DNA of 64,000 bases from assembly GCA_016192905.1 (NCBI GenBank), contig JACPTG010000001.1:421005-485004 (forward strand), in the 5' to 3' direction. The notes under the pieces were generated by a model. That model ran no database searches. It saw only the letters and a list, made by a program, of their open reading frames with translations, and was not told the origin of the DNA. Position 1 is the stretch's first letter, and every line of letters begins with the position of its first letter. Source of the stretch: Candidatus Woesearchaeota archaeon (lineage in GTDB: Archaea > Nanobdellota > Nanobdellia > Woesearchaeales > UBA10216). This document shows, in pieces, positions 9,571 through 60,120 of this stretch. Both the position numbers and the translations under genes were made by a program.

Positions 9571-9668
9571 CCAACATTGCAAAGAAGTGAACGACGCGGA
9601 CAGTACACGCTACGACTCTCCCCGAAAGGGGCAGTTGAAACAAGGCCTGAACAGGCTGCTACTAATAA
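9571..9668 (-). repeat. Family A intergenic repeat, copy 1 (inverted)
   Basis: Read on the minus strand it begins TAGTAGCAGCCTGTTCAGG, continues CTGCCCCTTTCGGGG and CGTGTACTGTCC, and ends near TTTGCAATGTTGG. This matches the block order of the plus-strand copies at 19069, 30818, 33213, 46053 and 60031. The central hairpin has an extra pair here (CCCC/GGGG). It lies upstream of aglB with no open frame. Confidence 0.65.
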
Positions 9669-9793
9669 TTTAGTTATTCTACCGAAAGCAAATCCGTCAA
9701 CCTTTAATCATATCAAATGTCTGCGTCGAAATAAAAAAACAGCCACAACAATCTTTATATACAGACCCGGGTTCTGCCCGGAAGTTGGAAAAA

Positions 9794-12700
9794 ATGGATG
9801 AAAAGGAAGACGACATTGACATAGACCTTGGCAATCTGTGGCCATTCGGAAAGAAGAAAGAAGCCCCTGCTGACACGGAACAAAAGAAACAGCCTGAGGA
9901 GGAACACTCTGCCCCGAAGGTAAAAGCAGAACATGAGCAACACAAAAAGCATGAAACAGCCCATGAAGATGAAGACGAGGTCAGCATAGGCGAAACCTTT
10001 GGAAAGATAAAAGGGCTGTTCAAGAGCGGCCAAAAGGCACACCAGGAAAAAGCCCCGCAGGCAAAGGATGAGGACGAGCTAAGCCTTGACACCCAAGCCA
10101 TATCAGGATTCTTCCAAAAAAACAGCAGGCAGCTGCTCATTGTGGCGGCCATAATAATAATAGCCGCGGCAGCAGCATATGTAAGGATGCTGCCCGGCCA
10201 GATGCTGTACGCAGACGACTGGGCAAAGCAAAGCACATACGGATTCCTAAGGGCTGACATAGAGCAGTCAATCCTGGCACAGTACCCAAACCTTCCGGAC
10301 AGGCAGAAGAACGAGCTTATAGACAAGGACTTCAATGAAGCCCTGAAAAAAGGAGTGTACACATTCAGGACAGGCCAGTATGCAGGCCAGTCAGCAAACA
10401 TCAACCAGCAAGTCCAGCAGACAGCAGAATACTTCAAGACCTTCTACCTGGACGACCAAGGCAATGCATACATGCCGGACATAGACCCCTACTACTGGTT
10501 CAGGTACGCAAGAAACATAGTTGAGCACGGCTACCCCGGCGACACCATAAAAAACGGAAGAAGCTACGACACATTCCAGCTGGCGCCAGAAGGAAGATAT
10601 GTAGAGCCGGAAGACACTTTCCACCCATACTCAATAGCCATATTATACAAGATTCTCAGGATATTCAACCCGGGAATGAGCCTGATGTACGCGGAAATGC
10701 TCTACCCAGTGATAATAGCGGCCCTCGCGGCTGTAATAGTGTTCTTCATCTGCAGAAGAATAGCGGGCGAAGTCGGAGGCCTGTTTGCAGGCCTGCTCAT
10801 GGCCCTCAACCCATCCGCGCTTTCAAGAAGCCTGTTCGGACACGGAGACTCGGACACGTGGGTGCTGTTCTTCTCAGTGCTCACCGCATTCCTTTTCCTC
10901 AAGGCAATCGAGTCCAAAAGCCTGAAATCGCAGACGGCCCTGACCTTCCTTGCGGGCCTGAGCATAGGCATATTCTCAAGGATATGGGGAGGATGGTGGT
11001 TCATATACAACTTCCTGCTCGCAGCATCAGCAGTCTACTTCGGCTACACAATCCTCGCAAACAGAAAGCAGATTGCAAAAGGAATCGGGAATTTGTTCAC
11101 CCATGAAGTAAAAACAGCACTTGCAGTAACCCTGATGTTCATACTGTTCTCGGGAATATTCGTAAGCCTGCTCTCCGGCCTTGACACATTCATACTCAGC
11201 CCAATCGGCTCGCTGGCATTCACCAGGATAAAGGCGCCTGTCATGGAAAGCCTTTTCCCAAACGTGCTTACAACAGTCGCAGAGCTCAACGAGGGAGGCA
11301 TCAACGACATAATGAACAACGTGGGCGGCCCTGTATTCTTCTTCACAGCCCTCCTCGGAATAATGATAAGCATGACCAAGAAGAGGGTGGACTGGCAGGA
11401 ATGGATGTTCATACTGGGCTCAGCAGCATACTGGCTTATCCTCCTGCTGATGAGAGGCGAACTTGTGCAGGAATGGTTCCTGATACTCCTGAGCCTGCCA
11501 ATACTGGCCCGGACACTCTACGCCGGAATAATGCACGAGCCAATAGACATGAGAGTGGCCGCGCTGCTGATAATATGGTTCATAGTAACCATGTACGCCA
11601 GCACAAAGGGAATAAGGTTTGTCATGCTCCTCGTGCCTGCATTCGCAATAGCCTTCGGAGTCGCCATAGGGTTCATACACAAGAGGCTTGAGCACTCGCT
11701 GACAACCGACCTGAAAATCCACAGGACAATAGCATCCGTAACCGTATTCGCGCTGCTGCTTGTCCTTGTAATGGTACCATCCAACGCATGGGCTGTGTCG
11801 GTAAGCATAGCAAAACAGGACGTGCCAATAATAAACGACGCATGGTACAACTCCCTCACGGCAATAAGGGACAACTCAAACAAGACAGCGATAATAACCA
11901 GCTGGTGGGACTTCGGGCACCATTTCAAGGCGCTTGCCGAAAGGCCGGTGACATTCGACGGAACAACCCAGGGAAGCCCGCAGGCACACTGGGTAGGACA
12001 GATACTAAAAACTGACGACGAGGAAATGGCAGTGGGAATACTCAGGATGCTTGACTGCGGGGGCAACAACGCATTCGAAGAAGTCCAGAAGACAGACAGA
12101 AACGACACGCTTATGTCAATAGGCATACTTTACAGCGTATTCAAGGACGACAGGGAGGCGGCAGGCAAAAAGCTCAGGCAGAAATACGGGATGACTGCCG
12201 GGCAGGCAGAGGAAGTGCTCAAATACACCCACTGCGAGCCGCCGGAGGCATTCTTCATAGCATCCGAAGACATGATAGGGAAGTCAGGCGTATGGGCCCA
12301 CTTCGGCTCATGGGACTTCGGCAAGGCGTACATATGGAACAGGCTGAGGGAAAAGCCAGCAGAAGAGGCAATAGCAGAAATGCAGGGCAAGCTCAACTAC
12401 ACAAGAGAACAGGCAGAGCAGACATACTACGACATCCAGGCAATGAGCGACGCACAGGGAAACACATGGATAAGCCCCTGGCCCAGCTACGGACAAATAC
12501 TGAACTGCAACGGAAAAACAGGAATATGCGACACCATAGGCCTGGACGCAGGCGGTGGAAGGAGGCTAAACATAGTCCCTGCCATAAATTTCTCAGCAAA
12601 CGACGCAGTGCTCCTGCTTGAAGGCCAGGAGCCAAAGAACCTCAGGGCGGTGGCAATAGCTACGGAAAAAGGGGTTGAGCAGAAATCGCACTCGGAAAAC

Positions 12701-13264
12701 GTCGGCATAGACTGGGGCGCGACAATAATACCAGAAGGCGACAACTACAGGATGGTAATGGCCGCGCCAGAACTGAACGCAAGCATATTCACAAGGATGT
12801 TCTTCATGAAAGGCCACAGCCTAAGGCACTTCAAGCTCCTCACATACCAGAGAAGCATAACAGGAGCAGAAATATACGTATACAAAGTGGACTGGAAAGG
12901 CGGAGAAATGAATATTAAACCAGAGCTGGCCAAAAAGGAAGCGGTAGGGCCGCAGGACAGCGTAACATTCAACTACATAGGATACCTGGAGGACGGGACT
13001 GTGTTTGACAGCTCAATATACAACTGGGACAGCCGCAACATAACCAAAGACCAGCCATTCGGAGAGGACTCGGCACCCTTCACATTCACCATGGGCAAAT
13101 CAGAAATAATACCCGGCCTTGAAGAGCAGATGACTGGGATGAAGGCCGGCGAGGAAAAGACCGCCAGGATAAGCCCTGAAAAAGCATACGGAACAGAGCC
13201 GGGCAAGCACCCGCTCGGCAACAAGACACTATTCTTCAGGTTCAGGATAGAAAAGATAAAATGA
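9794..13264 (+). CDS. aglB: Oligosaccharyltransferase AglB/STT3 with C-terminal FKBP-type isomerase domain
   Basis: 1156 residues from ATG 9794; an in-frame TTG at 9785 is an alternative, and the TATA box at 9754-9760 fits either. Residues 1-115 are a charged, probably cytoplasmic extension. About 12 membrane helices follow, with the external DPYYWFRYARN loop carrying the DxD-type metal site (near 230) and the catalytic SWWDFGHHF motif (near 702), the WWDxG signature of STT3. It transfers lipid-linked glycan to Asn of exported proteins. Unusually, the last 120 residues (GPQDSVTFNYIGYLEDGTVF ... FTMGKSEIIPGLEEQMTGM ... KAYG) are a complete FKBP-like prolyl isomerase domain on the external side. 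It overlaps the GT2 gene by 4 bases. Confidence 0.93.
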   Translation: MDEKEDDIDIDLGNLWPFGKKKEAPADTEQKKQPEEEHSAPKVKAEHEQHKKHETAHEDEDEVSIGETFGKIKGLFKSGQKAHQEKAPQAKDEDELSLDTQAISGFFQKNSRQLLIVAAIIIIAAAAAYVRMLPGQMLYADDWAKQSTYGFLRADIEQSILAQYPNLPDRQKNELIDKDFNEALKKGVYTFRTGQYAGQSANINQQVQQTAEYFKTFYLDDQGNAYMPDIDPYYWFRYARNIVEHGYPGDTIKNGRSYDTFQLAPEGRYVEPEDTFHPYSIAILYKILRIFNPGMSLMYAEMLYPVIIAALAAVIVFFICRRIAGEVGGLFAGLLMALNPSALSRSLFGHGDSDTWVLFFSVLTAFLFLKAIESKSLKSQTALTFLAGLSIGIFSRIWGGWWFIYNFLLAASAVYFGYTILANRKQIAKGIGNLFTHEVKTALAVTLMFILFSGIFVSLLSGLDTFILSPIGSLAFTRIKAPVMESLFPNVLTTVAELNEGGINDIMNNVGGPVFFFTALLGIMISMTKKRVDWQEWMFILGSAAYWLILLLMRGELVQEWFLILLSLPILARTLYAGIMHEPIDMRVAALLIIWFIVTMYASTKGIRFVMLLVPAFAIAFGVAIGFIHKRLEHSLTTDLKIHRTIASVTVFALLLVLVMVPSNAWAVSVSIAKQDVPIINDAWYNSLTAIRDNSNKTAIITSWWDFGHHFKALAERPVTFDGTTQGSPQAHWVGQILKTDDEEMAVGILRMLDCGGNNAFEEVQKTDRNDTLMSIGILYSVFKDDREAAGKKLRQKYGMTAGQAEEVLKYTHCEPPEAFFIASEDMIGKSGVWAHFGSWDFGKAYIWNRLREKPAEEAIAEMQGKLNYTREQAEQTYYDIQAMSDAQGNTWISPWPSYGQILNCNGKTGICDTIGLDAGGGRRLNIVPAINFSANDAVLLLEGQEPKNLRAVAIATEKGVEQKSHSENVGIDWGATIIPEGDNYRMVMAAPELNASIFTRMFFMKGHSLRHFKLLTYQRSITGAEIYVYKVDWKGGEMNIKPELAKKEAVGPQDSVTFNYIGYLEDGTVFDSSIYNWDSRNITKDQPFGEDSAPFTFTMGKSEIIPGLEEQMTGMKAGEEKTARISPEKAYGTEPGKHPLGNKTLFFRFRIEKIK

Positions 13265-13920
13265 ACGCATTCCCCGTAATACCCGCGTACAACGAGCAAA
13301 AGCACATAACAGAGGTAATTGAAAAAACCAAAAAACAGATTGACTCGCGGAAGATAATAGTGGTTGACGACGGAAGCAGGGACGCAACAGCAGAAGAGGC
13401 GCAAAAAAGCGGGGTCACTGTAATAAGGCACATAGTAAACCTCGGCAAGGGAGCAGCCCTCAAGACAGGCTGCGACTACGCAGTCATGCAAGGCGCTGAC
13501 GCAATTATAGTGCTGGACTCAGACACCCAGCACGACCCAGAGGAAATCCCGCACTTCACCAGGGCGCTTGAAAACGCGGACATGGTGTTCGGATACAGAA
13601 GCCTTGGAGGAAAAATGCCCCTTGTATTCAGGTTCGGGAACTGGTTCATAGGGACAGCAACAAGGATACTGTTCCACATGAAAATAAACGACACGCAATG
13701 CGGATACAGAGCCTTTAAAAAGGAAGCCTACCAGAAGATAAGATGGAAGGCCACAGACTACAGCGTAGAGTCAGAAATGATAGCCCTTGCAGGAAAGCAC
13801 CGGATAAAATTCGAGCAGGTGCCTGTAAAAACGATATACGTTGACAAATACAAGGGCACGACAGTAATGGACGGAATATCAATAGTGGCGCAGATGATAT
13901 GGTGGAAATTCACGCGGTAA
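13261..13920 (+). CDS. Family 2 glycosyltransferase (dolichyl-phosphate sugar synthase-like)
   Basis: 219 residues, GT-A fold. The N-terminus VIPAYNEQKHITEVIEKTKKQ is followed by VVDDGSRDATAEEA (nucleotide binding) and the metal-binding VLDSDTQHDPEEIP near residue 85. NDTQCGYRAFKKEAYQKI is the signature of dolichyl-phosphate mannose/glucose synthase-like enzymes. It lacks the usual C-terminal membrane helices, so it probably works with the small membrane protein encoded next. The start ATG overlaps the aglB stop (ATGA), so the two are translationally coupled. It probably makes a lipid-linked sugar for the N-glycosylation pathway; sugar and acceptor are inferred. Confidence 0.9.
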   Translation: MNAFPVIPAYNEQKHITEVIEKTKKQIDSRKIIVVDDGSRDATAEEAQKSGVTVIRHIVNLGKGAALKTGCDYAVMQGADAIIVLDSDTQHDPEEIPHFTRALENADMVFGYRSLGGKMPLVFRFGNWFIGTATRILFHMKINDTQCGYRAFKKEAYQKIRWKATDYSVESEMIALAGKHRIKFEQVPVKTIYVDKYKGTTVMDGISIVAQMIWWKFTR

Positions 13921-13921
13921 A

Positions 13922-14263: not shown

Positions 14264-14286
14264 GCAGTGGTTTGTAGTTAACTCTT
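14264..14286. repeat. Family B GT-rich repeat, short copy
   Basis: GTGGTTTGTAGTTAACTCTT at 14267-14286 is identical over 20 bases to 9482-9501. It falls at the junction of two convergent genes and supplies the stop codon of the minus-strand lipoprotein gene. Confidence 0.6.
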
Positions 14287-14724: not shown

Positions 14725-14807
14725 GAATAGGAGGCAAGAATCACTGATATATATATATATATCTGAATTTTTGAATTTTGGCGCTACTGCGGAAAACCAG
14801 CAAATTT

Positions 14808-16026: not shown

Positions 16027-16036
16027 AGGTGTGGTT

Positions 16037-19036: not shown

Positions 19037-19076
19037 TGGAAATAATGACTAGTAGCTGGAAATAATGACTAGTAGC
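19037..19076 (+). repeat. 20-bp tandem duplication at the edge of a family A repeat
   Basis: TGGAAATAATGACTAGTAGC occurs twice in direct succession (19037-19056, 19057-19076). The second copy runs into the family A start (TAGTAGCAGGCTGTGG), so the duplication looks like a slippage or insertion footprint at the element boundary. Confidence 0.6.
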
Positions 19077-19172
19077 AGGCTGTGGCTACCTTAGCTTAAG
19101 CAGCCCCTTTCGGGAGGTTCGCCACGTGTACGGTTTGGATTCGTGCACTGTTTTGGAATGTTCAATACTAAC
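19069..19172 (+). repeat. Family A intergenic repeat, copy 2
   Basis: CTAGTAGCAGGCTGTGGCTA starts the element; the centre is GCAGCCCCTTTCGGGAGG, then CACGTGTACGGTTTGGATTC, GTGCACTG and GGAATGTTCA. GGCTG near the start can pair with CAGCC in the centre, and CCC/GGG closes a small hairpin that on the opposite strand has a GAAA loop. It lies between the stop of uS12 and the small membrane-protein gene. Confidence 0.75.
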
Positions 19173-20051: not shown

Positions 20052-20320
20052 GCTTTGAGTCCGAGAACGGAGATTGAGTATGGCTTCTTGCAGATTACGC
20101 CAAGCTCATCATTGGGAACGCTGAGCGTTTCCACAGCCGCGTTTGTCATCCTGCTGTATGTTTCTATGTCCGCTTTCACCCTCGCCGGGCAGTTGCTTGA
20201 CAGGTACACTTTCACTAACTTGCCTGTCTTCAGAGCCTTAACGGTCCTTTCTGTACCTATTACTGCATTGTTCTCCTTAATCGCCTTCTTTAACTCGGAT
20301 GAAATGTCCATTTCAGTCAT
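20048..20320 (-). CDS. rpl30e: Large-subunit ribosomal protein eL30
   Basis: 90 residues of the L7Ae/L30e fold: DISSELKKAIKENNAVIGTE, RTVKALKTGKLVKVYLSSNCP, NAAVETLSVPNDELGVICKKP. It is a 50S component related to kink-turn-binding proteins. It overlaps rpoA2 by 8 bases and the NusA-like gene by 4, giving the conserved rpoA2-rpl30e-nusA-rps12 order. Confidence 0.93.
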   Translation of the reverse strand: MTEMDISSELKKAIKENNAVIGTERTVKALKTGKLVKVYLSSNCPARVKADIETYSRMTNAAVETLSVPNDELGVICKKPYSISVLGLKA

Positions 20321-22988
20321 CGCTGCGTTTCATAACCAGCCTCGGAAGGCCGGTCCCTATCGGTACAGGCTGATTGAGCATAACATTTTCAACCACTGAG
20401 TTGAGCCTGTCAACTTCTCCTGTAAGCGAGGCGCTTATAATGTGCTTAATCGGCGTCTCGAAAGACGCCCTGGCAAGCACGCTCGCCTTCTCCCTCACAA
20501 CCCCATACCTTGTAATGCCCTTCAGGCTTCCATTGAAGCACATTGTGTCAGCGACCAGCATCAAATGCCTGATGTCAACGTTCAGCCCCTGGTTCTCAAT
20601 GACCTTGAACACCTCGCTTATCAGCGCCTGCCTCGCCGCCTCAATACCAAGCACTTCCTCAATCTCAAAAATGTCATTGGTAGTCGTCCTTGTAGCGTCC
20701 ACGAACGGAAGCGAAAGCAACTTCTTCAGGTTGCTGCCTGACGTTATAATCATGAACTCGCCATCCTTCTTCACAGGAAGAACCTGGGTGATTCCACGAA
20801 CCCCCCTGATATAGCTGTCCTTGATTTTCTCCTTGTACTTGTAGATCTCATTAGGATTCTCCTCCTTGCTCTTGAGCCTGAATATGTAAGCGCCCTTCTT
20901 CACCTCAACCGACAGGTTCTTGTTGGTGTTCTTCAGCGCCTTAAGAAGATTCGCCTCTGTAATGTTGAGCTCCCTTGCCTTTTCATCATCAAGAGTGACC
21001 TCTATCCGCGACTCGGCGAGATTAAGGACGATTTCAGAGGATATGTCAGCGAGCCGGGTCTCCTTCACATAAAGCGCTATCTTCTTTATGTCCTTGCCCT
21101 GCGAATAAGGCTTCCTGAGGAAAATCTCCATCATAGGAGTCGCAATGTTCTTCCTCCCATCCAAAATCTCAATTATCCTCGGCAGGCCTGTCGTGATGTT
21201 CATCTCAGCGACGCCAGCGAAATGGAAGGTATTTAGCGTGTTGTGGGTCACTATGCCGTCGAATGTTGTGAAGGTTTCGCAATCTTCAACCGAAAAGTCA
21301 TACACATAAGGCGTGCTTGGCGGCACGTATTCCATGCCTGTTATCTCGTCCCATGCAGCATCTGAGCGCAAGGCCCTGTCCATTATCCTTATCTCATCGC
21401 TTATGTCAGTTTCATTGTGAGCCGCTGTTTCCATAAACCTTCTTCTGTACCTTTCCAGCGTCATCTTCCCTATTTTCTGCTTCCTAGTCAGCTTTCTTTC
21501 AAGCCTGCCTGGAATGCCGATCTTTTTCCTGAGACTTTCAAAGAGATTTCCGAAGCCGGGAACCATTTCCACGACATCATAGCTTTTTTCCTCTGGAATT
21601 ATCTCTGCCAGCTTATTGAGGAGCATTTCTTTTCTTGGCATGGAAGATCCGATTTTATCCCTGAAAGCAGGGGAATATCTATGCGATATGCTGAGTGTGT
21701 GCTGTTTCCCGGTCTTTCCCTTGCTTGTATGGATCCCCAGTCTGCTCAGGAGGAAAGCAATGCCGTCCATAAGCTCTTTTGAGTTAGAGCTGGCCCTGAT
21801 AACCCGTCTTTGGACGCTTATGCTCCCGTCGCCATCAAAATACGCCTGCAGGAGACCGGTCACGAAACTTTCATTTGCGGTGAAGGCAAAGCTCGGAACC
21901 CTTTTGCCTGCTGACTTCCTGCTGCATGTCAAGTTGATAAAGTCTGCAATGAGTGTCGAGTTTATAATTAGGCTTGCGCTCTCCCCATACTGGCCCTTCT
22001 CCCTTTTTATTCTGTGGCCGATTCCGAATTTCCTCGGGATTTTTGCGCAGTTTTCCAGATATTCCGGGGAAATGTTTGTTATTGCAATGTAATTTGCAGT
22101 GTGTGTCCCCTCTGCCAAGTACGCTCCTGTCAAGAAGCCGAACTCCTTGTCAAGCTCAATGGATTCCGGTATCCTTGCCTTGCCATGATTCTGGTATGTA
22201 TATACAAGCGGCTCCTGGATAAGGATGCTTCCCCTGCCCCTGGCTATGTTGTTTATCTGCTCATATTTCAGGGGGCTTGTAAACTCCCTTGCCTTCCTGC
22301 TGTTTCCTGCCTGAATTATTTTTGAGATTTCGCTGGCATATACGTATTTATCTTTTGGAAGGTAAGTTTCCAGCAGAATTCTGTCCGTAGTCTCTGTCCT
22401 TATTTCCCTGGCCACTGGAAGCCGTGTGCCCACTGCAAGGCTGCTGGCTGGAACCGATGTGATTCGGTTGTTTTGCCTTATGACAAATGAGTGGTAGGGT
22501 GTGGCGGTTATCGAGCGCCCTGACCTTGTGGTTATTCTTACCAGACTTTCAGGCGATTTGTGCCTGCTTAGGGCTGTTACCTTTTTCCATTCTATCCTTT
22601 CATTCTGGCCAAGCGCGGGCACGTACACATCTGCGTTGACTGGCAGCACCTGGGTTTCTCCCTGGCGCATTACGGGGTTTTCGGACATCGCGGCGTCAAT
22701 TAGCTCCCCTATCCTCACGGCCCTTACGCCATTTCCTGTCCTTACTATCACTCTTTCCTCGTAGTCCAGCGACATCTGCGTCCCGGGCTCACCAATTGAT
22801 TCTGCGGAAACAAGCCCGACGCTCTCGCCTGGCTCGGCAAGCATCTGCCTGTACTGGCTTTCAACCCTTTCCATAATCTCCTTAGCCTTTGCCTCGGAAA
22901 GCTTCCTGGGCAGGTTGGCAGCAAGCTCCTCAATCACAGTTGACGGAAGCCTGTCCTCGTATTTTTTCAGCAGCTCTTCAGGCTCCAT
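20313..22988 (-). CDS. rpoA2: RNA polymerase subunit A'' with an intein
   Basis: The chosen start is MEPEELLKKYEDRL (22988), directly after the rpoA1 stop; an upstream ATG at 23009 would add seven residues inside rpoA1. The extein is the C-terminal part of the largest subunit: LVSAESIGEPGTQM before and TLNTFHFAGVAEMNITTGLPR after the insertion, then the jaw and clamp regions (LPFVDATRTTTNDIFEIEEVLGIEAARQALI ... DIRHLMLVADTMCFNGSL). The insertion sits in the most conserved bridge/trigger-proximal motif. The mature length without it (about 380 residues) is normal for archaeal A''. Splicing must occur for a working polymerase. Confidence 0.95.
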   Translation of the reverse strand: MEPEELLKKYEDRLPSTVIEELAANLPRKLSEAKAKEIMERVESQYRQMLAEPGESVGLVSAESIGEPGTQMSLDYEERVIVRTGNGVRAVRIGELIDAAMSENPVMRQGETQVLPVNADVYVPALGQNERIEWKKVTALSRHKSPESLVRITTRSGRSITATPYHSFVIRQNNRITSVPASSLAVGTRLPVAREIRTETTDRILLETYLPKDKYVYASEISKIIQAGNSRKAREFTSPLKYEQINNIARGRGSILIQEPLVYTYQNHGKARIPESIELDKEFGFLTGAYLAEGTHTANYIAITNISPEYLENCAKIPRKFGIGHRIKREKGQYGESASLIINSTLIADFINLTCSRKSAGKRVPSFAFTANESFVTGLLQAYFDGDGSISVQRRVIRASSNSKELMDGIAFLLSRLGIHTSKGKTGKQHTLSISHRYSPAFRDKIGSSMPRKEMLLNKLAEIIPEEKSYDVVEMVPGFGNLFESLRKKIGIPGRLERKLTRKQKIGKMTLERYRRRFMETAAHNETDISDEIRIMDRALRSDAAWDEITGMEYVPPSTPYVYDFSVEDCETFTTFDGIVTHNTLNTFHFAGVAEMNITTGLPRIIEILDGRKNIATPMMEIFLRKPYSQGKDIKKIALYVKETRLADISSEIVLNLAESRIEVTLDDEKARELNITEANLLKALKNTNKNLSVEVKKGAYIFRLKSKEENPNEIYKYKEKIKDSYIRGVRGITQVLPVKKDGEFMIITSGSNLKKLLSLPFVDATRTTTNDIFEIEEVLGIEAARQALISEVFKVIENQGLNVDIRHLMLVADTMCFNGSLKGITRYGVVREKASVLARASFETPIKHIISASLTGEVDRLNSVVENVMLNQPVPIGTGLPRLVMKRSDD
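21240..22772 (-). mobile_element. Intein with LAGLIDADG homing endonuclease in RpoA''
   Basis: 511 codons in frame, from Ser (SLDYEERVIVRTG, splice block A) after GTQM to the terminal His-Asn (DGIVTHN), with Thr as the +1 extein residue. The homing endonuclease has both LAGLIDADG-type motifs (FGFLTGAYLAEGT and TGLLQAYFDGDG). The C-terminal splicing block is YVYDFSVEDCETFTTFDGIV. All splicing residues are present, so it should be self-excising, and the endonuclease looks intact. The first residue is Ser rather than the more usual Cys. Confidence 0.93.
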
Positions 22989-22989
22989 C

Positions 22990-25662
22990 CTATTCCATGA
23001 CCTCGGCAATTATGCGCTTCACATTTATCTTTCCAGCCTCTGACTTTGAAACGTCTATCCCGTCCTCGCCATAGCTAAACTGGATAATCCTCCTGCTCGC
23101 ATCCCTGACTGTATGATCATACTCAACCTTAAGGTCCTGCATGGCATTGGCCAGCCTCCTGTACAGGTACCCTGATTTCGGCGTCCTAAGCGCGGTATCC
23201 ATAAGGCTATCCCTGCCCACCATTGCCTGGAAGAAGAACTCCGGCGGCGAAAGGCCCTTCTTGAAACAATTCTTGATGAACCCATGCGCCTCTGGCCCGA
23301 TATCATTCCTTTCAAAGCAGCTTAGGGTGCGGTGCTTATACCCTTTCTCAATCCTCTTTGCCCTGAGGGCCTGCTGGCCAACTGTAGCGGCCATCTGGGC
23401 CAGGTTGATTGTGGTCCCCCTTGCGCCTGAAAGCGCCATAATCATTGTATGGCTGCTCCTGTCAGCACTCCTGGAAACTATAAGGCCAGCCTCATTCCTC
23501 GCCCTGTTCAGCACTTCCATAATCTTAAGCTCAAGGGTCTCCCTCAGTGTCCTTCCCGGGAAAGCCTCAAGCTGCCCCTCCCTATACTGCCTTATCAGCT
23601 CATTCACCTCATTGCTGCTGGAATCAAGCAGCTGCCTGACCTCCCTGCTTATTTTTTCAGGAAGGTCTGTGTCTGACACAGTTGTGGTAAAGCCCCTTTT
23701 CATTAGAACCTGAATGCCCAGCCTGAAAACTTTTCCAATGAACTCCACAGCCTTCTTCTCGCCATACTTATGATGTATGTTCCTGAGAAGCAGCCCTGAA
23801 CCCTCACCCAGGTTGTTCTTGTCCATCACGCCTGACACCAGCTTCCCGCCCTCGATTACAACCTCAGGCTCCTCAGGCGACTTGGAACGCCCCACAAAGC
23901 CGAAGTCCTCAGGCAAAATAACGCTGAAAATCTCCTTTCCTGTAACGGTTTCCTTCCTAGGAAGCCTCCCGAGCTCAGGTATCTCAGCCCTTGCAAGAAG
24001 GTCTATAGCAGCCTCCCTGCCCATAGAAAAGCTTTTCTGGGTAAGAAGGTAATTCCCTGAAATGGCGTCCTGAACGCAGCCAATAACCGCAAGCCCATAC
24101 CTGGGGCTGATAAGCTGCGTCTGGACAAGCATCAGAATCTCGGCCTCTGCCATCGCCTCCTCGGTCTGCGGAATATGAAGGTTCATCTCATCACCATCGA
24201 AGTCCGCGTTGTAAGGGAAGCACACCGCGGGATTAAGCCTAAGCGTCTTGAAAGGCAGAACCCTGATGTGGTGAACCATCATGCTCATCCTGTGCAGGGA
24301 AGGCTGCCTGTTGAAAATTGCTATGTCGCCGTCCATAAGATGCCTCTCAACCACATAACCAGGCTGCAGCTCCTCAAGGGCCTGCTCAATAGTCTCCTCA
24401 GTAAGCTTCTTCTTCTTCCCATCAGGCCTCACAATGTAATTAGCACCCGGATACTTCTTCGGACCCTTCTCCACAAATTTTTTCAGATAGCCCATATTCC
24501 ACTGCGTTACCCTTTCAGGCACAGTCAACTTGAGAGCCATCACCTCAGGAACGCCAACCTCAGTAATGTCCAGCATAGGGTCAGGGCTGATAACAGTCCT
24601 TGCGGAGAAGTTGGTCCTCTTGCCAGCAAGGTTATGCCTAATCCTGCCCTCCTTGCTCTTTATCCTCTCTGTCAGCGTCTTCAGCGGCTGGCCTGACCTG
24701 TGCCTTGCCGGAGGAAGCTGCGCCACCTCATTGTCAAAAAATGTGGTAATGTGATACTGAAGCAAATCCCAAAGATCCTCAACAATTATCTCAGGAGCGC
24801 CTGCGTTAATGTTCTCAAACAGCCTCTGGTTTATCCGGACAATGTCCCCCAGCTTGTGAGTCAAATCGTCCTCACTGCGCTCGCCTGTCTCCAGTGTAAT
24901 TGAAGGCCTCATAGTGACCGGCGGGATTGGAAGGACGGTAAGGACTGTCCATTCAGGCCTGGCAATCTTTGTGTTCAGGCCGAAAAGCTCTGCATCAGCA
25001 TCGCTGATTTTCTCCAGCCTTGTCCTGATCTCAATTGGCGAAATCCGCTTTTCATCCTCAAGGAATGTCGTCGGCTTCTCAATTGCGACCTTGCCCTGCT
25101 TGGCCTTGCAATGAGGGCACTTGTTCCCCAGCCGCTGGATTACCTCCCTAATCTTCTTGCGCAGCAACTCCTCACCCTTCTCCTTCCCATACTGCCTCAG
25201 CTTCTCCGAGTACTTGTCCAGCTTGTCCTGAGGGATTAAAATGCGGCCGCACTCCCTGCAAGTGCACCTGAGAAGCGTCAGTATAACCCCTGAAAAGTTC
25301 AGATGTATGATTGGCCTGGCGAGCGAAATGTAGCCAAAATGGCCCACGCACTCCTTGAGCTTGCTGCCGCACGTCTTGCACCTAAGGCCAGGGTCAATCA
25401 CCCCAAGCCTAATATCCATCAGCCCGCCGTCAACAGGATAGCCTTCCTTGTCATAAAGCTCAGGAGTAACTATCTTTGCAGAAGCCATCTTCTTAATCAT
25501 CTTAGGGCTTAAAAGGCCAAATTGCACTGACCTCACCTGCTTGTAAACCACCTGCTCCTCCTCAACAGGCTTCCTCTCTACAGGAGCGGCATCTGGCGCC
25601 TTTACCTCCTCAAGCTCCATTTCCTCAGCGACTGCCTCTGGCTTTTCGTCTTCCATTTTCAA
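22990..25662 (-). CDS. rpoA1: RNA polymerase subunit A'
   Basis: 890 residues. An acidic N-terminal extension of about 40 residues (EDEKPEAVAEEMELEEV...) precedes the conserved start QVRSVQFGLLSPKMIKKMA. Zinc sites CKTCGSKLKECVGHFGYI and CTCRECGRI...CPHCKAKQ follow, then the catalytic NADFDGDEMNLHIPQ magnesium motif and HRTLSCFERNDIGPEAHGFI near the C-terminus. This is the catalytic N-terminal part of the largest subunit. It overlaps rpoB1 by 4 bases. The extension is longer than in typical archaeal A' and looks disordered. Confidence 0.96.
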   Translation of the reverse strand: MKMEDEKPEAVAEEMELEEVKAPDAAPVERKPVEEEQVVYKQVRSVQFGLLSPKMIKKMASAKIVTPELYDKEGYPVDGGLMDIRLGVIDPGLRCKTCGSKLKECVGHFGYISLARPIIHLNFSGVILTLLRCTCRECGRILIPQDKLDKYSEKLRQYGKEKGEELLRKKIREVIQRLGNKCPHCKAKQGKVAIEKPTTFLEDEKRISPIEIRTRLEKISDADAELFGLNTKIARPEWTVLTVLPIPPVTMRPSITLETGERSEDDLTHKLGDIVRINQRLFENINAGAPEIIVEDLWDLLQYHITTFFDNEVAQLPPARHRSGQPLKTLTERIKSKEGRIRHNLAGKRTNFSARTVISPDPMLDITEVGVPEVMALKLTVPERVTQWNMGYLKKFVEKGPKKYPGANYIVRPDGKKKKLTEETIEQALEELQPGYVVERHLMDGDIAIFNRQPSLHRMSMMVHHIRVLPFKTLRLNPAVCFPYNADFDGDEMNLHIPQTEEAMAEAEILMLVQTQLISPRYGLAVIGCVQDAISGNYLLTQKSFSMGREAAIDLLARAEIPELGRLPRKETVTGKEIFSVILPEDFGFVGRSKSPEEPEVVIEGGKLVSGVMDKNNLGEGSGLLLRNIHHKYGEKKAVEFIGKVFRLGIQVLMKRGFTTTVSDTDLPEKISREVRQLLDSSSNEVNELIRQYREGQLEAFPGRTLRETLELKIMEVLNRARNEAGLIVSRSADRSSHTMIMALSGARGTTINLAQMAATVGQQALRAKRIEKGYKHRTLSCFERNDIGPEAHGFIKNCFKKGLSPPEFFFQAMVGRDSLMDTALRTPKSGYLYRRLANAMQDLKVEYDHTVRDASRRIIQFSYGEDGIDVSKSEAGKINVKRIIAEVME

Positions 25663-30817: not shown

Positions 30818-30910
30818 ACTGGTAGCAGCCTGTTCCTGCCCTGCTTCAGCCGCCCCTTTCGGGAATCGGTACGTGTACGGCTTGGAGTTCACTGGTCTGC
30901 AATGTTCACT
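30818..30910 (+). repeat. Family A intergenic repeat, copy 3
   Basis: Blocks in the family order: ACTGGTAGCAGCCTGTTCCT, CAGCCGCCCCTTTCGGGAAT, TACGTGTACGGCTTGGAGTT and GGTCTGCAATGTTCACT. The start (GCAGCCTGTTC) is closer to copy 1 than to copies 2, 4, 5 and 6, so two sub-types exist. It is in the non-coding stretch between the lipoprotein and helicase genes. Confidence 0.7.
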
Positions 30911-30920
30911 GATTTAACTG

Positions 30921-33212: not shown

Positions 33213-33297
33213 TAGTAGCGGGCTGTGGCTGCCCTGGATTCAGCAGCCCCTTTCGGGAATTGGTAACGTGTACGGTCTGGAGGTGTACTATCAGCCT
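33213..33297 (+). repeat. Family A intergenic repeat, copy 4 (3' end divergent)
   Basis: TAGTAGCGGGCTGTGGCTGC, CAGCAGCCCCTTTCGGGAAT and ACGTGTACGGTCTGGAGGTG match the family. The usual end block (CTGCAATGTTCA) is replaced by ACTATCAGCCTGCT, so this copy is shortened. It lies between the DUF357 start and the stop of a small minus-strand gene. Confidence 0.7.
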
Positions 33298-33298
33298 G

Positions 33299-33505
33299 CT
33301 ATTCATAATTCATGTGCCTGATTTCTAAAGAAACAGCCAAATTCAATCTATCGTGCACAAATGTTTTCCCATCACCCTCAACCCTAAACCCGTACTTGGA
33401 CAAAACTTCCTCAATTTCACGCAAAGCCTCAGCTTCAACTGCCTTGGCCTGCCTCCTGTACTCAGCATAATCCAGCATCCGACCGTTTACTGTGATGAAC
33501 CCCAT
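33299..33505 (-). CDS. Small hypothetical protein
   Basis: 68 residues (MGFITVNGRMLDYAEYRRQA ... LREIEEVLSKYGFRVEGDGKTF ... LNLAVSLEIRHM). It reads as one helix plus beta strands with no membrane segment. No family was recognised. A minus-strand TATA box (CTATAAAAATT, about 33568-33578) would start a leader carrying the perfect hairpin at 33516-33541. A family A repeat follows the stop codon directly. Confidence 0.5.
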   Translation of the reverse strand: MGFITVNGRMLDYAEYRRQAKAVEAEALREIEEVLSKYGFRVEGDGKTFVHDRLNLAVSLEIRHMNYE

Positions 33506-33675: not shown

Positions 33676-33760
33676 TGCCCTTTTCCAAATCATAAGGTTT
33701 TTATAATTTGAGGCCATGGTTAGCTTCACATGCGAGCGGGCGTAGACGACATAAATTGTG

Positions 33761-33833
33761 CAGGCGTGCCGCGATTTGAACGCGGATTAGCCCATGCGAA
33801 CAGGCTGTCCTGTCCAAATTAGACGACACGCCT
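33761..33833 (-). tRNA. tRNA-like gene, anticodon unclear (possibly CGC)
   Basis: The acceptor stem AGGCGTG/CACGCCT, the T arm CCGCG-TTCAAAT-CGCGG and the D arm GTCT-loop-GGAC with GG in the loop are all well formed. The anticodon arm is odd: AGCCT/GGGCT pairs only with an 8-base loop (GTTCGCAT), so the anticodon is uncertain, CGC (Ala) being the simplest reading. The pair 3-70 is G-C, not the G-U typical of tRNA-Ala. It may be an unusual tRNA or a pseudogene. No introns are seen. Confidence 0.55.
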
Positions 33834-46052: not shown

Positions 46053-46148
46053 TAATAGCAGGCTGTGGCTACCTTTGGTTTGGCAGCCCCTTTCGGGATT
46101 AGCTCGATGTGTACGGTTTGGCTTCGTGAACAGTCTGCAATGTTCATT
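46053..46148 (+). repeat. Family A intergenic repeat, copy 5
   Basis: TAATAGCAGGCTGTGGCTAC, GGCAGCCCCTTTCGGGATTA, CGATGTGTACGGTTTGGCTT and CAGTCTGCAATGTTCATT. All family blocks are present in order. It lies between the candidate small RNA and the ROK kinase promoter. Confidence 0.75.
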
Positions 46149-54621: not shown

Positions 54622-54627
54622 AATGAA

Positions 54628-55887
54628 TTAGAACATGCCCAGAGTCCGCTGGGAATGCGCCGGTTTTTCAGTTTCAACCTTTCGCCTTTCATCGCCCCAA
54701 CGCGGAACACCATACTCCCCATCATACCCAGGCTCAACTTTGAGCCTGCCATCCCGGTTCATCATTATTGCATCAGCAAGCTTGCCGCCGCAGGCCTTTG
54801 CCAACTCTTCCTGAGGCATATCCAGCAGGAGCGCATACTCGTTCCCAAAGGCTTCTATCAGCTGATTGTAGACCTTCCAGGTCTTAGCCGAAGCCACTGG
54901 GCAGCGCTGAACCATGCCTATGATTTCTGACAGCGGAATCACTGAGAAAAAGCCAGCAGCGCCATCAGGCTTTTCCCCTGCGGGCCTGTCAGCAAGCTGC
55001 TCAACCCTGTGAAGCACGCCAATGGTAAGCCTACGCCTGCACTTCGGGCAGATATCCATGTTTTTCAAGGACTCTGCAGGCGACAGGCAGACTCCACATG
55101 CACGATGGCCATCAAAGTGATATTTGCCATACGCAGGGTCAACCTCAATCGTGCCCTTTACGCTCCTGTTCCTTATTGCCCGGATAATCCCCTTATAGCT
55201 CAACTCAGGCAGCTCAAAGATATTTGCCTCGCGGCCTATCCTCCACGGCCAAAAGCTGTGGCAGTCTGAGTTTGAAAGCAGAGTTACCCTGTCCAGCTCC
55301 CTAATCCTCCAGTTCATCGGAGGGTCAGAGCTGAGTCCTGTCTCAATTGCATGAATCTTATCAGCCCTGTCGCCAAAACATTCCTTCAGCGAGTCAAAGC
55401 CTGACATGCCTCCAAAAACGCCGAACCACGGCGTCCACGCATGCGCAGGTATTATTTCAATATCCTCGCTGATAGACATCATGCTGTCAACCAGCTCAAT
55501 GCTGCTGAACCCGAAAATCGGCCTGCCATCATAATCCACCCTTCCCTTCCTTTTCAGGAAGTCAGTAATCTGGGTTACGACATCAGCATTCGGAGCCAAA
55601 ATAATATGATGAATCCTCCGGCCCCTGCCGCCCTGGGTGTAAACAACTGCAATCTCAGTCTGCCAGATGAACGGAAAGCCTGATTTGCTCCGGAGAATGC
55701 CATCCCCCTCCTCCGACAGCTTTTCCCTAACCTCCTGCTGCCACTTAGGATGCTGAAAATCGCCGGTTCCAAGCAAACCAAGGCCCTTAACCCTCGCATA
55801 TTTCTCAAGGTTTTCCAGGTTCAGGTCCTTGCTTGTTGCCCTGGCGTAACGGCTGTGGATGTGAAGGTCTGCATAGAGGTCCATCAT
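54628..55887 (-). CDS. endoQ: Endonuclease Q, PHP-domain DNA repair nuclease
   Basis: 419 residues. PHP-domain metal motifs: DLYADLHIHSRYARATSKDLN, GLLGTGDFQHPKW, IWQTEIAVVYTQGGRGRRIHHIILAP, IIPAHAWTPWFGVFGG and LLSNSDCHSFWPWRIGREAN. A zinc finger (CGVCLSPAE ... CPKCRRRL) follows near residue 265. This is the TIGR00375/EndoQ pattern; EndoQ cuts DNA 5' of deaminated bases (uracil, hypoxanthine) and abasic sites. The last residues, QRTLGMF, form a PCNA-binding box (QxxLxxF), consistent with known PCNA recruitment. It is followed upstream on the same strand by polB. Confidence 0.92.
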   Translation of the reverse strand: MMDLYADLHIHSRYARATSKDLNLENLEKYARVKGLGLLGTGDFQHPKWQQEVREKLSEEGDGILRSKSGFPFIWQTEIAVVYTQGGRGRRIHHIILAPNADVVTQITDFLKRKGRVDYDGRPIFGFSSIELVDSMMSISEDIEIIPAHAWTPWFGVFGGMSGFDSLKECFGDRADKIHAIETGLSSDPPMNWRIRELDRVTLLSNSDCHSFWPWRIGREANIFELPELSYKGIIRAIRNRSVKGTIEVDPAYGKYHFDGHRACGVCLSPAESLKNMDICPKCRRRLTIGVLHRVEQLADRPAGEKPDGAAGFFSVIPLSEIIGMVQRCPVASAKTWKVYNQLIEAFGNEYALLLDMPQEELAKACGGKLADAIMMNRDGRLKVEPGYDGEYGVPRWGDERRKVETEKPAHSQRTLGMF

Positions 55888-55920
55888 CCTGGAAGTCTAA
55901 AGGTGATTATATAATGTTTT

Positions 55921-58323
55921 TCAGCCAAAGAACGCATCCAGCCTTTTCTGCTGCAAGGGCTCCACTTCCCGGATTACATCTATGCCAAAAACCGCCATTA
56001 TCCTCTCCACTGACGGGAGAATCTGGTTGTTGATGTAGTACTCAGAATCGTAGTCATTGCCCTTCACTTCCTCAGGCAACTTAGCCCTGTCCCTAATCCT
56101 GTCCTTTCCGGCTGTCACTATGTAGCTGATCATTGAACCCACTAAAACCTGCCTGCCCTGCTGCCTCATCCTCTGAGCCACTGCAACATGCGGAGCAATG
56201 GAATCATAGCTTGCCAAATCCTTCTGAAGCTGGGTTGTGATTATCATTTTTCCCTGTGGTATTTCCCTGTTTCTTGCGGCAGATACTATTGCTGCAATAT
56301 ATTCAAGGGCTTTCTGCGGCGCCCGTTCCTTAAGCACTATTTCCAGCACCCTCTCCTGGGTTTCCTTGGCTATTGGCGACAGGTTTCTCCTTATCGCCTC
56401 AAAGCCCTTTATCCTTATGTTTCCCTCCTCTGTAATAAGCGCATACTTCTTCTTGGCGCCAATCCCCTTCTCCCTCGTGCCCACAAACAAGCCTGCCGGA
56501 TAAAACCCCTGGTATTCAAGCTCCATCAGGCCAGGAAGCTCCCGGTTGATTTCTGCCACGAATTTTTCAGCATCATCCCTGCCACTGCCTCCAAGCGTAA
56601 GAAAAATCGAATCCGTATCCGAGTAAAGCACCCCAAACCGCTCCTTTGCCCTGCCAATAACACCTGTTATGTAGTCCCTTCCGAAAGCGGTAATGCTTTG
56701 CGCGCACTCCATACTGTACCACCTTGCCCCAAAAAAACCGAAATACCCGTAGATGGAGTTAGCGATTGTCTTAAGGGCTTCCTCCCTTGCCTTCAGAAGC
56801 TTCCTGTCCTCAGCGCTTTTCAGAAGCTCCTTGATGCGCATCCTTCTGGTAATCAGGCCTTCAATAACAGAGGAAATGAGGCCGCGCCTCTTAGAGCAGA
56901 ACCAAAATTTCAGGCCGGGCGCAAAAGCCTGGTCGCAGCAGCCGCAATTCAGCATATCAGGACTGATGTTGTGCGCTGAAATTATAGTGGGATAAAGGCT
57001 GCGGAAGTCAAAAACAGCCACATCGCTGTAAAGGCCCGGAGTGGGCTCATGCACATAAGCGCCCTCAAAAGTGTGCTCCAGCCTCTGCCTTGTCTCAACA
57101 TACTCCGGCCTGTTAGGGGCCAGCTCGCCGAAAGACCTGGCCTGGCCGAGAAGATACCACTCAACCAGCTGCGAAAAGCTCATCCTGCTCACATCTGCCA
57201 AAGGCATGCCCACCACCCTGACCAGCTCCACCATATTAGGAAAAAGCCTTTGGGCAAGCTTTCCAGTAAGCACAGCGTCCTGCACATTGTACCTGCAATA
57301 ATCCTCAAGCCCGACGTTATTCTCCCAGGCATTCCACAGGCCGTCAAGACCTATGCCATGCTTGCCCTCTCCAAGAATCTCCACAGCCACTGAATTGAGG
57401 TCAAACACCGGAGTTTCCATATACCTGCCGAAAATCTTCCTTATGAACTTGAGAACGTCAAGGTGAACCACCCCTGCAACGTCAACCTGTGACTTTGCAG
57501 CCCTTGGCTGGGAGAAATCCAGGCCAATGGGCAACTGAACATTATTCCTGGCCGCGCGGGCAAGCATAAACGGGAAGTCAAACCCGTCAGAATAATAGCC
57601 GGCCAGAACATCAGGCTGCAATTCCTCAACAAGCTGCACGAACCTTTCAAGCAGCTGCCGCTCATCATCAACAAACTCAACATAATCAAGCTGCGTATCA
57701 AACCGCTTCCATGTTATTACCCTCTGAAACCCGCCAGACGCCACGCCGAGCATTATAATCGGCTGCTCCGCAGGAATTATTTCCTTTCCTAGGGGGCTGT
57801 GGGTTTCAATGTCAAAAGACACAATCCTAAGACCCTCTGCAACCTCCTCTGAAGACTCAGAAATTGAAGCGGCCCTGAACAAAGGAACCCTGTAGGAAGG
57901 GTTATGCTCGAATTCGCCCTCCACCTCACAGGCCATCATGGGCACTATGCCCTTGTCAATAAGGTAACGCCTGGCAAAGGGAATGTCTGCCTCAAGCGCA
58001 GTGCCGTACATTGAAGCAGCCCGCCGAAGCAAAGGCACGTCAGAAGGAAGGCCTGCGAAAACCTTAAGCGCATTCACGCTGCTGCCCCGGTATTTTTTTT
58101 GATGCTGCTCAACCCTCTTAACCCTTACCTCGCCGCCTGGCTGCTGGACCGCAATGCGCTCAACATCCTCCCTCTGGCCATTCACCAGCCAGAAATAAGG
58201 CTCGAAGCTGCTGTCAGCCACGCACACCTGCCTTCCCTCAGAAGTCCGGCCATACAGGTGAATAACAGGCATGCCCCTGACTACCCTGTAAGTCACATCA
58301 AGAGGGAAAAACTTGATTCTCAT
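55921..58323 (-). CDS. polB: Family B DNA polymerase
   Basis: 800 residues. Exonuclease motif I at about 171 (VSFDIETHSPLG), motif II YYSDGFDFPFMLARAA, motif III YCRYNVQDAVL. Polymerase motifs DFRSLYPTIISAHNISPD (A), KTIANSIYGYFGFFGARWYS (B) and GVLYSDTDSIFLTLGG (C) are all intact. It is a replicative-type PolB with proofreading. The tail LQQKRLDAFFG carries a PCNA-interacting box (QxxLxxFF). EndoQ follows 33 bases downstream, and both carry PCNA tails. Length is typical of euryarchaeal PolB. Confidence 0.96.
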   Translation of the reverse strand: MRIKFFPLDVTYRVVRGMPVIHLYGRTSEGRQVCVADSSFEPYFWLVNGQREDVERIAVQQPGGEVRVKRVEQHQKKYRGSSVNALKVFAGLPSDVPLLRRAASMYGTALEADIPFARRYLIDKGIVPMMACEVEGEFEHNPSYRVPLFRAASISESSEEVAEGLRIVSFDIETHSPLGKEIIPAEQPIIMLGVASGGFQRVITWKRFDTQLDYVEFVDDERQLLERFVQLVEELQPDVLAGYYSDGFDFPFMLARAARNNVQLPIGLDFSQPRAAKSQVDVAGVVHLDVLKFIRKIFGRYMETPVFDLNSVAVEILGEGKHGIGLDGLWNAWENNVGLEDYCRYNVQDAVLTGKLAQRLFPNMVELVRVVGMPLADVSRMSFSQLVEWYLLGQARSFGELAPNRPEYVETRQRLEHTFEGAYVHEPTPGLYSDVAVFDFRSLYPTIISAHNISPDMLNCGCCDQAFAPGLKFWFCSKRRGLISSVIEGLITRRMRIKELLKSAEDRKLLKAREEALKTIANSIYGYFGFFGARWYSMECAQSITAFGRDYITGVIGRAKERFGVLYSDTDSIFLTLGGSGRDDAEKFVAEINRELPGLMELEYQGFYPAGLFVGTREKGIGAKKKYALITEEGNIRIKGFEAIRRNLSPIAKETQERVLEIVLKERAPQKALEYIAAIVSAARNREIPQGKMIITTQLQKDLASYDSIAPHVAVAQRMRQQGRQVLVGSMISYIVTAGKDRIRDRAKLPEEVKGNDYDSEYYINNQILPSVERIMAVFGIDVIREVEPLQQKRLDAFFG

Positions 58324-58410
58324 ACAGGGAAAGAGTGCGGGTGATTATATAAAACTGTTGGGCGGAAGTACGGACTGGCCGACAACGAACCGGCAAATTT
58401 ATATATACCC

Positions 58411-58420
58411 AAGTATACTT
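58411..58420. promoter_or_regulatory. Palindrome between TATA box and start of the relBE pair
   Basis: AAGTATACTT is a perfect 10-base palindrome placed just after TATA-like ATTTATATATA (about 58397-58407) and 7 bases before ATG 58427; a second GTATA follows at 58423. This is the expected site for autorepression by the antitoxin-toxin complex. Confidence 0.45.
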
Positions 58421-58426
58421 CAGTAT

Positions 58427-58663
58427 ATGGACACCACCATAAAAGTCAGGAAGGAAACAAAGGAATTCCTTGATCTGATTAAAAAGCATGATAAGCAAAG
58501 CTATGACGATTTGATAATGAACCTTGTAGAGGACTGGGTTGAGGAGCATCTTGAGCTAGAGCCCAGGGTAAGGCGGCAGATTCTTAAGTCTGTTCATGAT
58601 ATTAAATCCGGGCGCGTTAAAGCCCTGAAATTCGAGGAGCTTTACAATAAGGTTTACGGATAA
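58427..58663 (+). CDS. relB: RelB-type antitoxin
   Basis: 78 residues from ATG 58427 (MDTTIKVRKETKEFLDLIKK); the longer frame lies across the promoter and is rejected. The N-terminus is ribbon-helix-helix-like (TTIKVRKETKEFLDLIKKHDKQSYDDLIMNLVEDW), the rest an acidic toxin-binding helix and tail. The stop overlaps the toxin start (TAATG), the usual antitoxin-first coupling. It represses its own promoter, probably at the AAGTATACTT palindrome. Confidence 0.8.
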   Translation: MDTTIKVRKETKEFLDLIKKHDKQSYDDLIMNLVEDWVEEHLELEPRVRRQILKSVHDIKSGRVKALKFEELYNKVYG

Positions 58664-58965
58664 TGTCAAAAGTAGAGTTCCATCCAGGTATTGCCCAAGC
58701 CGTCAGGGAGCTGAAAATCAACCCCGTTAGACTAAGGCAGATGTACAACCTGATTGTTGAAGCTGTGTCCGATTTGGAGACCAGTACAAAGAGGCTTAGA
58801 GGTTTACCTGATCAGTTCAGAAAGCTGAGATTCGGCGATAAGAGGATTGTTTTGTGGCAAAGCAAGGACACTGTTTACGTCATCAGGATTTTCCATCGCA
58901 GGGAAGGATATTCCAAGAAGAGCTTGGAAAGGCTGCTGACACTGGTCAGGGAACTTACAGGCTAA
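58663..58965 (+). CDS. relE: RelE/ParE-family toxin
   Basis: 100 residues. KVEFHPGIAQAVRELKINPVRLRQMYNLIVEAV, RLRGLPDQFRKLRFGDKRIVLWQSKDTVYVIRIFHRREGYSKKSLE: the RelE beta-sheet with basic residues and the C-terminal IFHRREGY segment. RelE toxins cut mRNA in the ribosome A site; ParE relatives inhibit gyrase. The basic residues favour RelE. It is intact, unlike the two broken toxin-antitoxin loci at 14.8-16.2 kb. Confidence 0.85.
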   Translation: MSKVEFHPGIAQAVRELKINPVRLRQMYNLIVEAVSDLETSTKRLRGLPDQFRKLRFGDKRIVLWQSKDTVYVIRIFHRREGYSKKSLERLLTLVRELTG

Positions 58966-58969
58966 TCAG

Positions 58970-59950
58970 TCAGATGTACTCCTTCAGCCTCTGCCTGTAG
59001 AAGCCAACCGTGCGCCTCATGCCCTCCTCCAGGCCAACCTTTGGGGTGAAGCTGAGACGCTTCCTGATTTTTTCTGTGCTTAGGACTATCCTGCCTATCT
59101 CAATAGCCTTCCTCTCAGGAGGCCATGGCTTCAACTCAACCTTAGTCCCTGGAACAAGCTTCTCAATCAGCCTTACAACATCAATGAACCTTGTCTCAAC
59201 GCCAGAACCAAGCATGAAAACCTCACCCCTGGCCTTATCTGAGGTTGCTGCAAGAAGCATGGCCTCGGCGATGTCGTCAACATAAATGTAATCCCTTGTC
59301 TGGCTGCCATCACCGAAAACAGCAAGAGGCTCGCCTGAAAGGGCGCGCTTCACAAACCAATTGACAATGGCATAATCGCCAGTCCTTACCTGAGCCCTCG
59401 GGCCATAAGCGTTTGAGATGCGCATTGAAGTTGTGGCAAGACCATAAGCCTTATTGTAAAGAAGGAAATACTTCTCAGCGGCAAGCTTGTTAATGCCCTG
59501 GATGTCGGCAGGGTCTGTTGGATGGCTTTCGTCCACAGGACTCTTCCTGGCTGTCCCTATCACCCCCCTTGTGGATGCATAGACTATCCTTGCCTTGTCA
59601 TTTACCTTCCTCACTGTTTCCAGAAGGTTAAGCGCCCCCCTGCAGTTGATGTCAAGGTCAAGAAAAGGGTCAGACATTGACAAAGTATGGGACACCTGGG
59701 CAGCGCAGTCAAATATGATGTCCTTGCCCCTGACTGCTGCGTCCAGCCTCTTCCGGTCGCGGACATCAGCCTTAATGACCTCGACCTTTGACCTTATTTC
59801 CGCAATATTGGCAGGGTTCCAGCCATAAGGGTCGAGGCAGGCGTCATAAACAGTAACTTTAGCACCTGAACTGACTGCCGCATGGGCTATTGTGCTGCCA
59901 ATGAAGCCAAGGCCGCCTGTGATAAGAACTGCTTTTCCTGACAAGTCCAT
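58970..59950 (-). CDS. NAD-dependent sugar epimerase/dehydratase, atypical active site
   Basis: 326 residues from MDLSGKAVLITGGLGFIGSTIAH (GxxGxxG; the longer frame adds two residues). It belongs to the extended short-chain dehydrogenase group acting on nucleotide sugars: DVRDRKRLDAAVRGKDIIFDCAAQ, YASTRGVIGTARKSPVDESHPTDP, RISNAYGPRAQ, FGDGSQTRDYIYVDDIAEAMLLA. The catalytic Tyr of YxxxK is replaced: the sequence is IQGINKLAAEKYFLLY, with Gln at the Tyr position. Epimerase or dehydratase activity may be altered. It leads a set of surface-sugar genes. Confidence 0.85.
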   Translation of the reverse strand: MDLSGKAVLITGGLGFIGSTIAHAAVSSGAKVTVYDACLDPYGWNPANIAEIRSKVEVIKADVRDRKRLDAAVRGKDIIFDCAAQVSHTLSMSDPFLDLDINCRGALNLLETVRKVNDKARIVYASTRGVIGTARKSPVDESHPTDPADIQGINKLAAEKYFLLYNKAYGLATTSMRISNAYGPRAQVRTGDYAIVNWFVKRALSGEPLAVFGDGSQTRDYIYVDDIAEAMLLAATSDKARGEVFMLGSGVETRFIDVVRLIEKLVPGTKVELKPWPPERKAIEIGRIVLSTEKIRKRLSFTPKVGLEEGMRRTVGFYRQRLKEYI

Positions 59951-60030
59951 AAGCAATGCTTTTCAGAAATTATTTAAAAGAGTTTGCATCAGTTGCCTTT
60001 TACAGCGGATATAAAAAAAAAAGAATTAAA

Positions 60031-60120
60031 AACAGCAGGCTGTGGCTACCTCAGGTTTGGCTGCCCCTTCGGGAAATCGGAGGATTCAACGCATCAGATT
60101 CGTGCACTGCCAAAGGAATG
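60031..60120 (+). repeat. Family A intergenic repeat, copy 6
   Basis: AACAGCAGGCTGTGGCTACC, TTTGGCTGCCCCTTCGGGAA and AGATTCGTGCACTGCCAAAG. It lacks one T in the core (CCCCTTCGGG) and diverges after GGAGG. It ends 28 bases before the methyltransferase ATG, so it would lie in that gene's leader. Confidence 0.65.

Follow-up and report, generated by a model that had tools for sequence, protein, structure and literature searches.

A probably MITE-like family of short intergenic elements with inverted ends in a Woesearchaeota genome

Identification of the repeat family

The repeats described here are dispersed throughout a 1.43 Mb archaeal genome assembly (six contigs), end in inverted repeats and are unevenly conserved, and on balance we consider them to be an old, lineage-specific, non-autonomous, MITE-like DNA element. 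The family came to light in a 64,000-nucleotide stretch (contig C1, 421005 to 485004; hereafter the window), in which six intergenic copies of a unit termed family A had been noted. The archaeal gene content of the window includes split RNA polymerase subunits, STT3 and a family B polymerase, and a species-level genome collection gave Candidatus Woesearchaeota MAGs as the best RpoB matches, the closest being NC_groundwater_724_Ag_S-0.2um_46_11 (84% amino-acid identity). Other features of the window are an 1828-residue, probably cell-surface repeat protein (1858-7344; 13 repeats each of ~270 bp) and a LAGLIDADG-motif intein within an RNA polymerase large-subunit gene (20313-23009).

All six copies were present where they had been placed. 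A full-sensitivity scan of the window (filters off) using R1, a sequence-only model built from 22 copies, returned exactly six matches with E values of 2e-27 to 4e-16, the next match having an E value of 0.08. The copies are as follows:

9504..9661, minus strand: copy 1, full A..B element of 158 bp (A unit 9573-9663, minus strand; B end 9504-9528)
9504..9520, plus strand: B end of copy 1 (TAGCAGGCTGACTCTTC), inverted terminal repeat
19071..19165, plus strand: copy 2, solo A unit, top model match (90.5 bits)
30823..30913, plus strand: copy 3, solo A unit of the CAGCCTGTTC form
33216..33301, plus strand: copy 4, short form of 86 bp bounded by the two inverted ends TAGCGGGCTG...CAGCCTGCTA
46056..46148, plus strand: copy 5, solo A unit
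60031..60120, plus strand: copy 6, degenerate solo A unit beginning CAGC, 5′ of a methyltransferase-like gene (start 60149)

The coordinates in the original prediction thus marked six real units but cut the element short: the A..B element to which copy 1 belongs spans 9504-9661, and copy 4 reaches the right inverted end at 33301. It had also been stated that no copy has an open frame or lies inside a gene; copy 6 is in fact inside an open frame (59984-60775), but the likely gene start is the ATG at 60149 and the copy is upstream of it. We also noted a 19-bp tandem duplication, GGAAATAATGACTAGTAGC (flank plus TAGC), that spans the left boundary of copy 2 (19049-19091), and an unassigned tRNA-like gene adjoining copy 4 (33760-33833) for which the anticodon call consists of two bases. 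A second type of intergenic repeat, G/T-rich heptad-like arrays (TTGGTGG TTTGTAG TTAGTGG), occurs directly after gene stops at 9424-9490, 60759-60790 and 62078-62105, often beside the B side of an element.

Structure of the full element

The family A unit makes up the left half of a larger element. Several copies, when read further downstream, terminate in GTACACGAAGAGTCAGCCTGCTA (the B end), the last 10 bases of which are the inverse of the first 10 bases of family A (TAGCAGGCTG), and the full element runs from TA-GCAGGCTG to CAGCCTGC-TA as an inverted terminal repeat. The A and B ends are found in inverted arrangement at approximately 16 loci of 102-207 bp, mostly 154-168 bp (intact length about 155-170 bp), and terminal inverted repeats (TAGCAGGCTG / CAGCCTGCTA) are present in about 16 elements, with mismatches in the CAGCCTG form. 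Forms with internal deletions measure 86-114 bp, and some short elements (~70-150 bp) combine a B end with another, B-like one (TTGCAGGCTGACTCTGCGT). With lengths of 86-207 bp, no reading frame and at least 59 copies, the elements resemble MITEs in general, which are non-coding, multicopy and shorter than about 200-600 bp. In most full copies the outermost dinucleotide is TA at both ends, and the two ends further share AT-rich flanks and the quasi-palindrome CAG-S-CTG. Two sub-types had been proposed for the family; these are not linked haplotypes, because the G/C state at the palindrome centre varies independently, CAGGCTG and CAGCCTG being two states of the same central base that combine freely with either TGG or TTC.

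The interior contains GTNNAC sites at 17-bp spacing (GTGTAC, GTGCAC and GTTCAC in succession; autocorrelation at lag 17, z 5.3). A 35-bp leader, TTTATCCGCAGAAATCACTTAAAAAACTCTTAACAA, which includes a TATA-like stretch, is shared by seven copies and was found only beside A units. One full copy (contig C6, 183812-184020) has two perfect hairpins inserted in its core (ATTTGCC TGC GGGCAAAT; CAAATACGC CTAA GCGTATTTG). A search of 17 elements for target duplications, covering all offsets and lengths of 2-9, found none at a consistent offset; the terminal TA would fit a TA duplication but is inseparable from the repeat itself.

Copy number, genomic placement and distribution

Allowing up to one mismatch, the genome contains the core 16-mer 22 times and the reversed 16-mer not once. 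A genome scan with R1 identified at least 59 strong copies below an E value of 2e-7, 37 of them new to the model; since scoring covered 150 of the 606 candidates, the count is a minimum. The expectation that six copies in the window implied many in the genome was therefore borne out. The B-end pattern has 47 genome matches, and in total the family comprises ~60 copies, or ~90 when single ends are counted. Copies outside the window were analysed within the stretches of sequence that surround them. All but two of the 93 classified loci are between called genes, the two flagged exceptions including copy 6 of the window. Convergent, divergent and tandem intergenic gaps are occupied alike, with no gene-orientation preference and, across the 93 loci, no constant direction or distance relative to genes.

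Applied to 80 loci from other Woesearchaeota, to 18 genomes of the same family and, with stricter filters, to 287 other genomes of the order, R1 returned no hits, and the patterns used to search viral, phage, plasmid and genome collections likewise gave no match. At the copy 3 locus of the nearest relative (L120), the small upstream gene has its stop codon only ~27 bases ahead of the next promoter. The corresponding gap in the window is ~190 bases longer, element included, both lengths being read off the sequence across flanks that are not alignable. Judged by gap length only, copy 3 appears to be absent from this relative, the flanks being too diverged for a base-exact empty site. The anatomy of the element, with two inverted ends that the original prediction had missed, its genome-wide dispersal and its absence from relatives together back the suggestion that family A is a miniature mobile element.

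Conservation of the copies and proposed mechanism

Identity between nearest-neighbour copies averages 80% and does not exceed 86%, and the variable columns are saturated: taken over all pairs, copies agree there as often as independent draws would. Identity to the consensus is 96% in core columns and 58% in variable columns, with a perfect core in 20 copies. Fifteen of 72 columns exceed 95% identity, compared with ~0.06 expected under uniform decay, and the column variance is approximately 9 times that of the uniform-decay null (0.027 versus 0.003). The copies are old, with some blocks kept, and preservation of the core motifs far beyond uniform decay points to candidate protein-binding sites. 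Such uneven conservation could reflect either long movement under selection for binding by the mover or the individual retention of resident copies.

Outside the A..B elements, A units and B ends occur solo. When a profile of full elements was used to map where 45 solo A units terminate on the right, 16 did so at model positions 94-103, just past the third GTNNAC site, and 8 at positions 75-80, just past the second, whereas a leave-one-out random-cut simulation expects 9% and 5%, respectively (p ~1e-6 and ~1e-3, values that are optimistic because the bins were picked after the data were seen). These preferred right ends suggest that solo A is, for the most part, a unit in its own right and not what was left by chance truncation. 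The degree of preservation does not differ between full and solo copies (p 0.80).

Under the MITE-like reading, a trans-acting transposase or recombinase would have bound the CAGSCTG ends together with the subterminal GTNNAC array, and insertion would have been targeted to TA-containing, AT-rich intergenic sites. At present most copies stand as solo A (left) or solo B (right) units, and the many solo A units that stop right after the second or third GTNNAC site suggest that internal sites may have served as alternative ends, or that this portion is a retained unit. The expansion is old and probably over. Several observations stand against this reading: there is no consistent target duplication save possibly TA, no parent was found among the transposase families searched, full copies are no better kept than solo units, and the conservation is unlike that of uniformly decaying dead copies.

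A less probable alternative is that the copies are DNA sites maintained by the host. In this view CAGSCTG, the GCAGCCCC-TTTC-GGG block and the 17-bp GTNNAC array would be bound by a chromosomal or regulatory protein, and every resident copy would be kept by selection; such sites may have originated as mobile elements that were later taken over. The contrast between core and variable columns, the excess variance and the 20 perfect cores are all consistent with this, as are the saturation of variable columns between copies, the preferred ends of solo A units and their preservation at the level of full copies. However, the family was not found in any relative searched, numerous copies are degraded or cut, their relation to gene direction and distance is not fixed, and an active-element lineage preserving its transposase sites could also give rise to uneven conservation.

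Strand polarity

The ends of the element are in excess on the plus strand. Genome-wide, YAGCAGSCTG occurs 114 times on the plus strand versus 55 on the minus strand (p 7e-6; some matches are coding), and on contig C1 there are approximately 25 TAGCAGSCTG matches on the plus strand versus 5. The bias is strong only on C1 and originates from the solo units. A replication link of this polarity found no support: GC skew was uninformative and contig C4 has no switch at its Cdc6/Orc1 gene. The polarity is recorded here simply as an observation. We tentatively entertain, at low probability, a high-copy modular DNA site family in a DPANN archaeon (a CAGSCTG end plus the 17-bp GTNNAC array) whose members are individually conserved and strand-polarised along the chromosome. 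If true, this would represent either an old mobile element domesticated as a chromosome-organising or regulatory site, or one-ended, strand-coupled spread.

Strand-specific, one-ended spread by a single-strand or reverse-transcription based process, which would always include one TAGCAGG end and often stop short, appears unlikely in its own right. It would account for the plus-strand excess and for the asymmetry of the ends, the TAGCAGG end being missing in at most one or two of 62 A matches and the far end in most, but the strand bias is strong on C1 alone, contig strands are arbitrary, there is no bias switch at Cdc6/Orc1 on C4, and the B count is itself biased because the B pattern requires the end.

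RNA structure

The six copies had been described as sharing a conserved hairpin core with a GAAA tetraloop, possibly an RNA family. The two proposed helices, CCC/GGG and GGCTG/CAGCC, are able to pair, and the leader with a TATA-like stretch in seven copies would be compatible with transcription of a structured RNA from each copy. Nonetheless, none of 8 tested pairs in these helices was changed on both sides, and the GGCTG/CAGCC helix is broken by the CAGCCTG form. RNAalifold on 53 aligned copies gave 0.0 kcal/mol on one strand and -0.6 kcal/mol on the other, i.e. no consensus fold; most single-copy folds were no better than shuffles, and Rfam gave no match. Nor is the tetraloop a constant feature: loops differ in length, and only 24 of 59 copies have TTTC on the plus strand. 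The hairpin core is therefore a conserved block of sequence, without a structure maintained by compensatory change, and because any covariation is missing we reject an RNA family as very improbable.

Search for a transposase

The genome contains one IS630-type gene pair, the ends of which read TTAGCGACA. This element (L208; C1, 604130-607561) is split into two frames and flanked by two related tRNA-like sequences, an arrangement suggesting that it recently integrated at a tRNA. Derivation of the family from it is not supported, its terminal inverted repeat TTAGCGACA differing from that of the family, TAGCAGGCTG. A single IS200-type Y1 (TnpA) gene (L209; C6, 66346-66696) has hairpins of its own (CCGCCGGTC/GACCGGCGG) on either side, and its 3.3-kb locus contains no A or B unit. 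DDE_Tnp_1 is absent from the genome; searches for IS630, IS200 and IS4/5-type elements found no copy with ends matching the family, and there were no A..B pairs enclosing a gene and no copies spanning a transposase-size frame. There is thus no convincing parent among the IS630-type and IS200-type candidates, and we therefore do not claim that the family is an IS630-derived MITE or a member of the REPIN/RAYT system. A REP or REPIN family mobilised by a RAYT (REP-associated tyrosine transposase), in line with an earlier REP-like suggestion, is extremely unlikely: solo and paired inverted ends are similar in shape and the genome has one single-copy Y1 transposase, but this gene bears different ends with no adjoining copies, and no palindromic hairpin structure is kept across the family.

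Comparison with known repeat families

Streamlining is commonly assumed for small archaeal genomes, those of Woesearchaeota included. The ~90 copies and fragments of an apparently selfish element in 1.43 Mb, with none in the sampled order, constitute a lineage-specific repeat expansion, and the candidate protein-binding architecture defined here gives a handle for seeking a mover or binder. If the core is under selection, the family would exemplify the domestication of a repeat in DPANN archaea.

By analogy, the family may work in the manner of ERIC, RUP and similar TA-ended MITEs. The ERIC/IRU (RU-1) elements of enterobacteria are intergenic, less than 200 bp in length and present in many copies, with 7-bp terminal inverted repeats, TA termini and an unknown mover (PMC2229807). 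Compared by description, the Woesearchaeon family resembles them in size, intergenic location, short TA-ended inverted repeats and copy number; however, ERIC transcripts fold into long stem-loops and the Woesearchaeon copies do not, and the GTNNAC array and solo units are features of the Woesearchaeon family. Pneumococcal RUP and the Correia/NEMIS elements are TA-ended, intergenic, non-coding MITEs with a short inverted repeat starting with TA (PMC2229807, PMC10969869), and set side by side by description they share these properties with the present family. RUP is linked to IS630-Spn1, whereas the resident IS630-type copy here does not carry the family repeat. REPIN/RAYT systems are similar in having inverted pairs of a short conserved end together with singlets, at high copy number in intergenic regions (PMC3116915), but REPIN singlets are decayed (PMC3116915), whereas the present family shows no link to a RAYT, has singlets preserved to the same degree as pairs, and has asymmetric A and B ends. 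In archaea, the MITEs of Sulfolobus and haloarchaea are comparable as non-autonomous elements with terminal inverted repeats (PMC10969869); no MITEs of Woesearchaeota were reported in the literature searched. What is unusual in this MITE-like family is its internal 17-bp site array and its preferred solo units.
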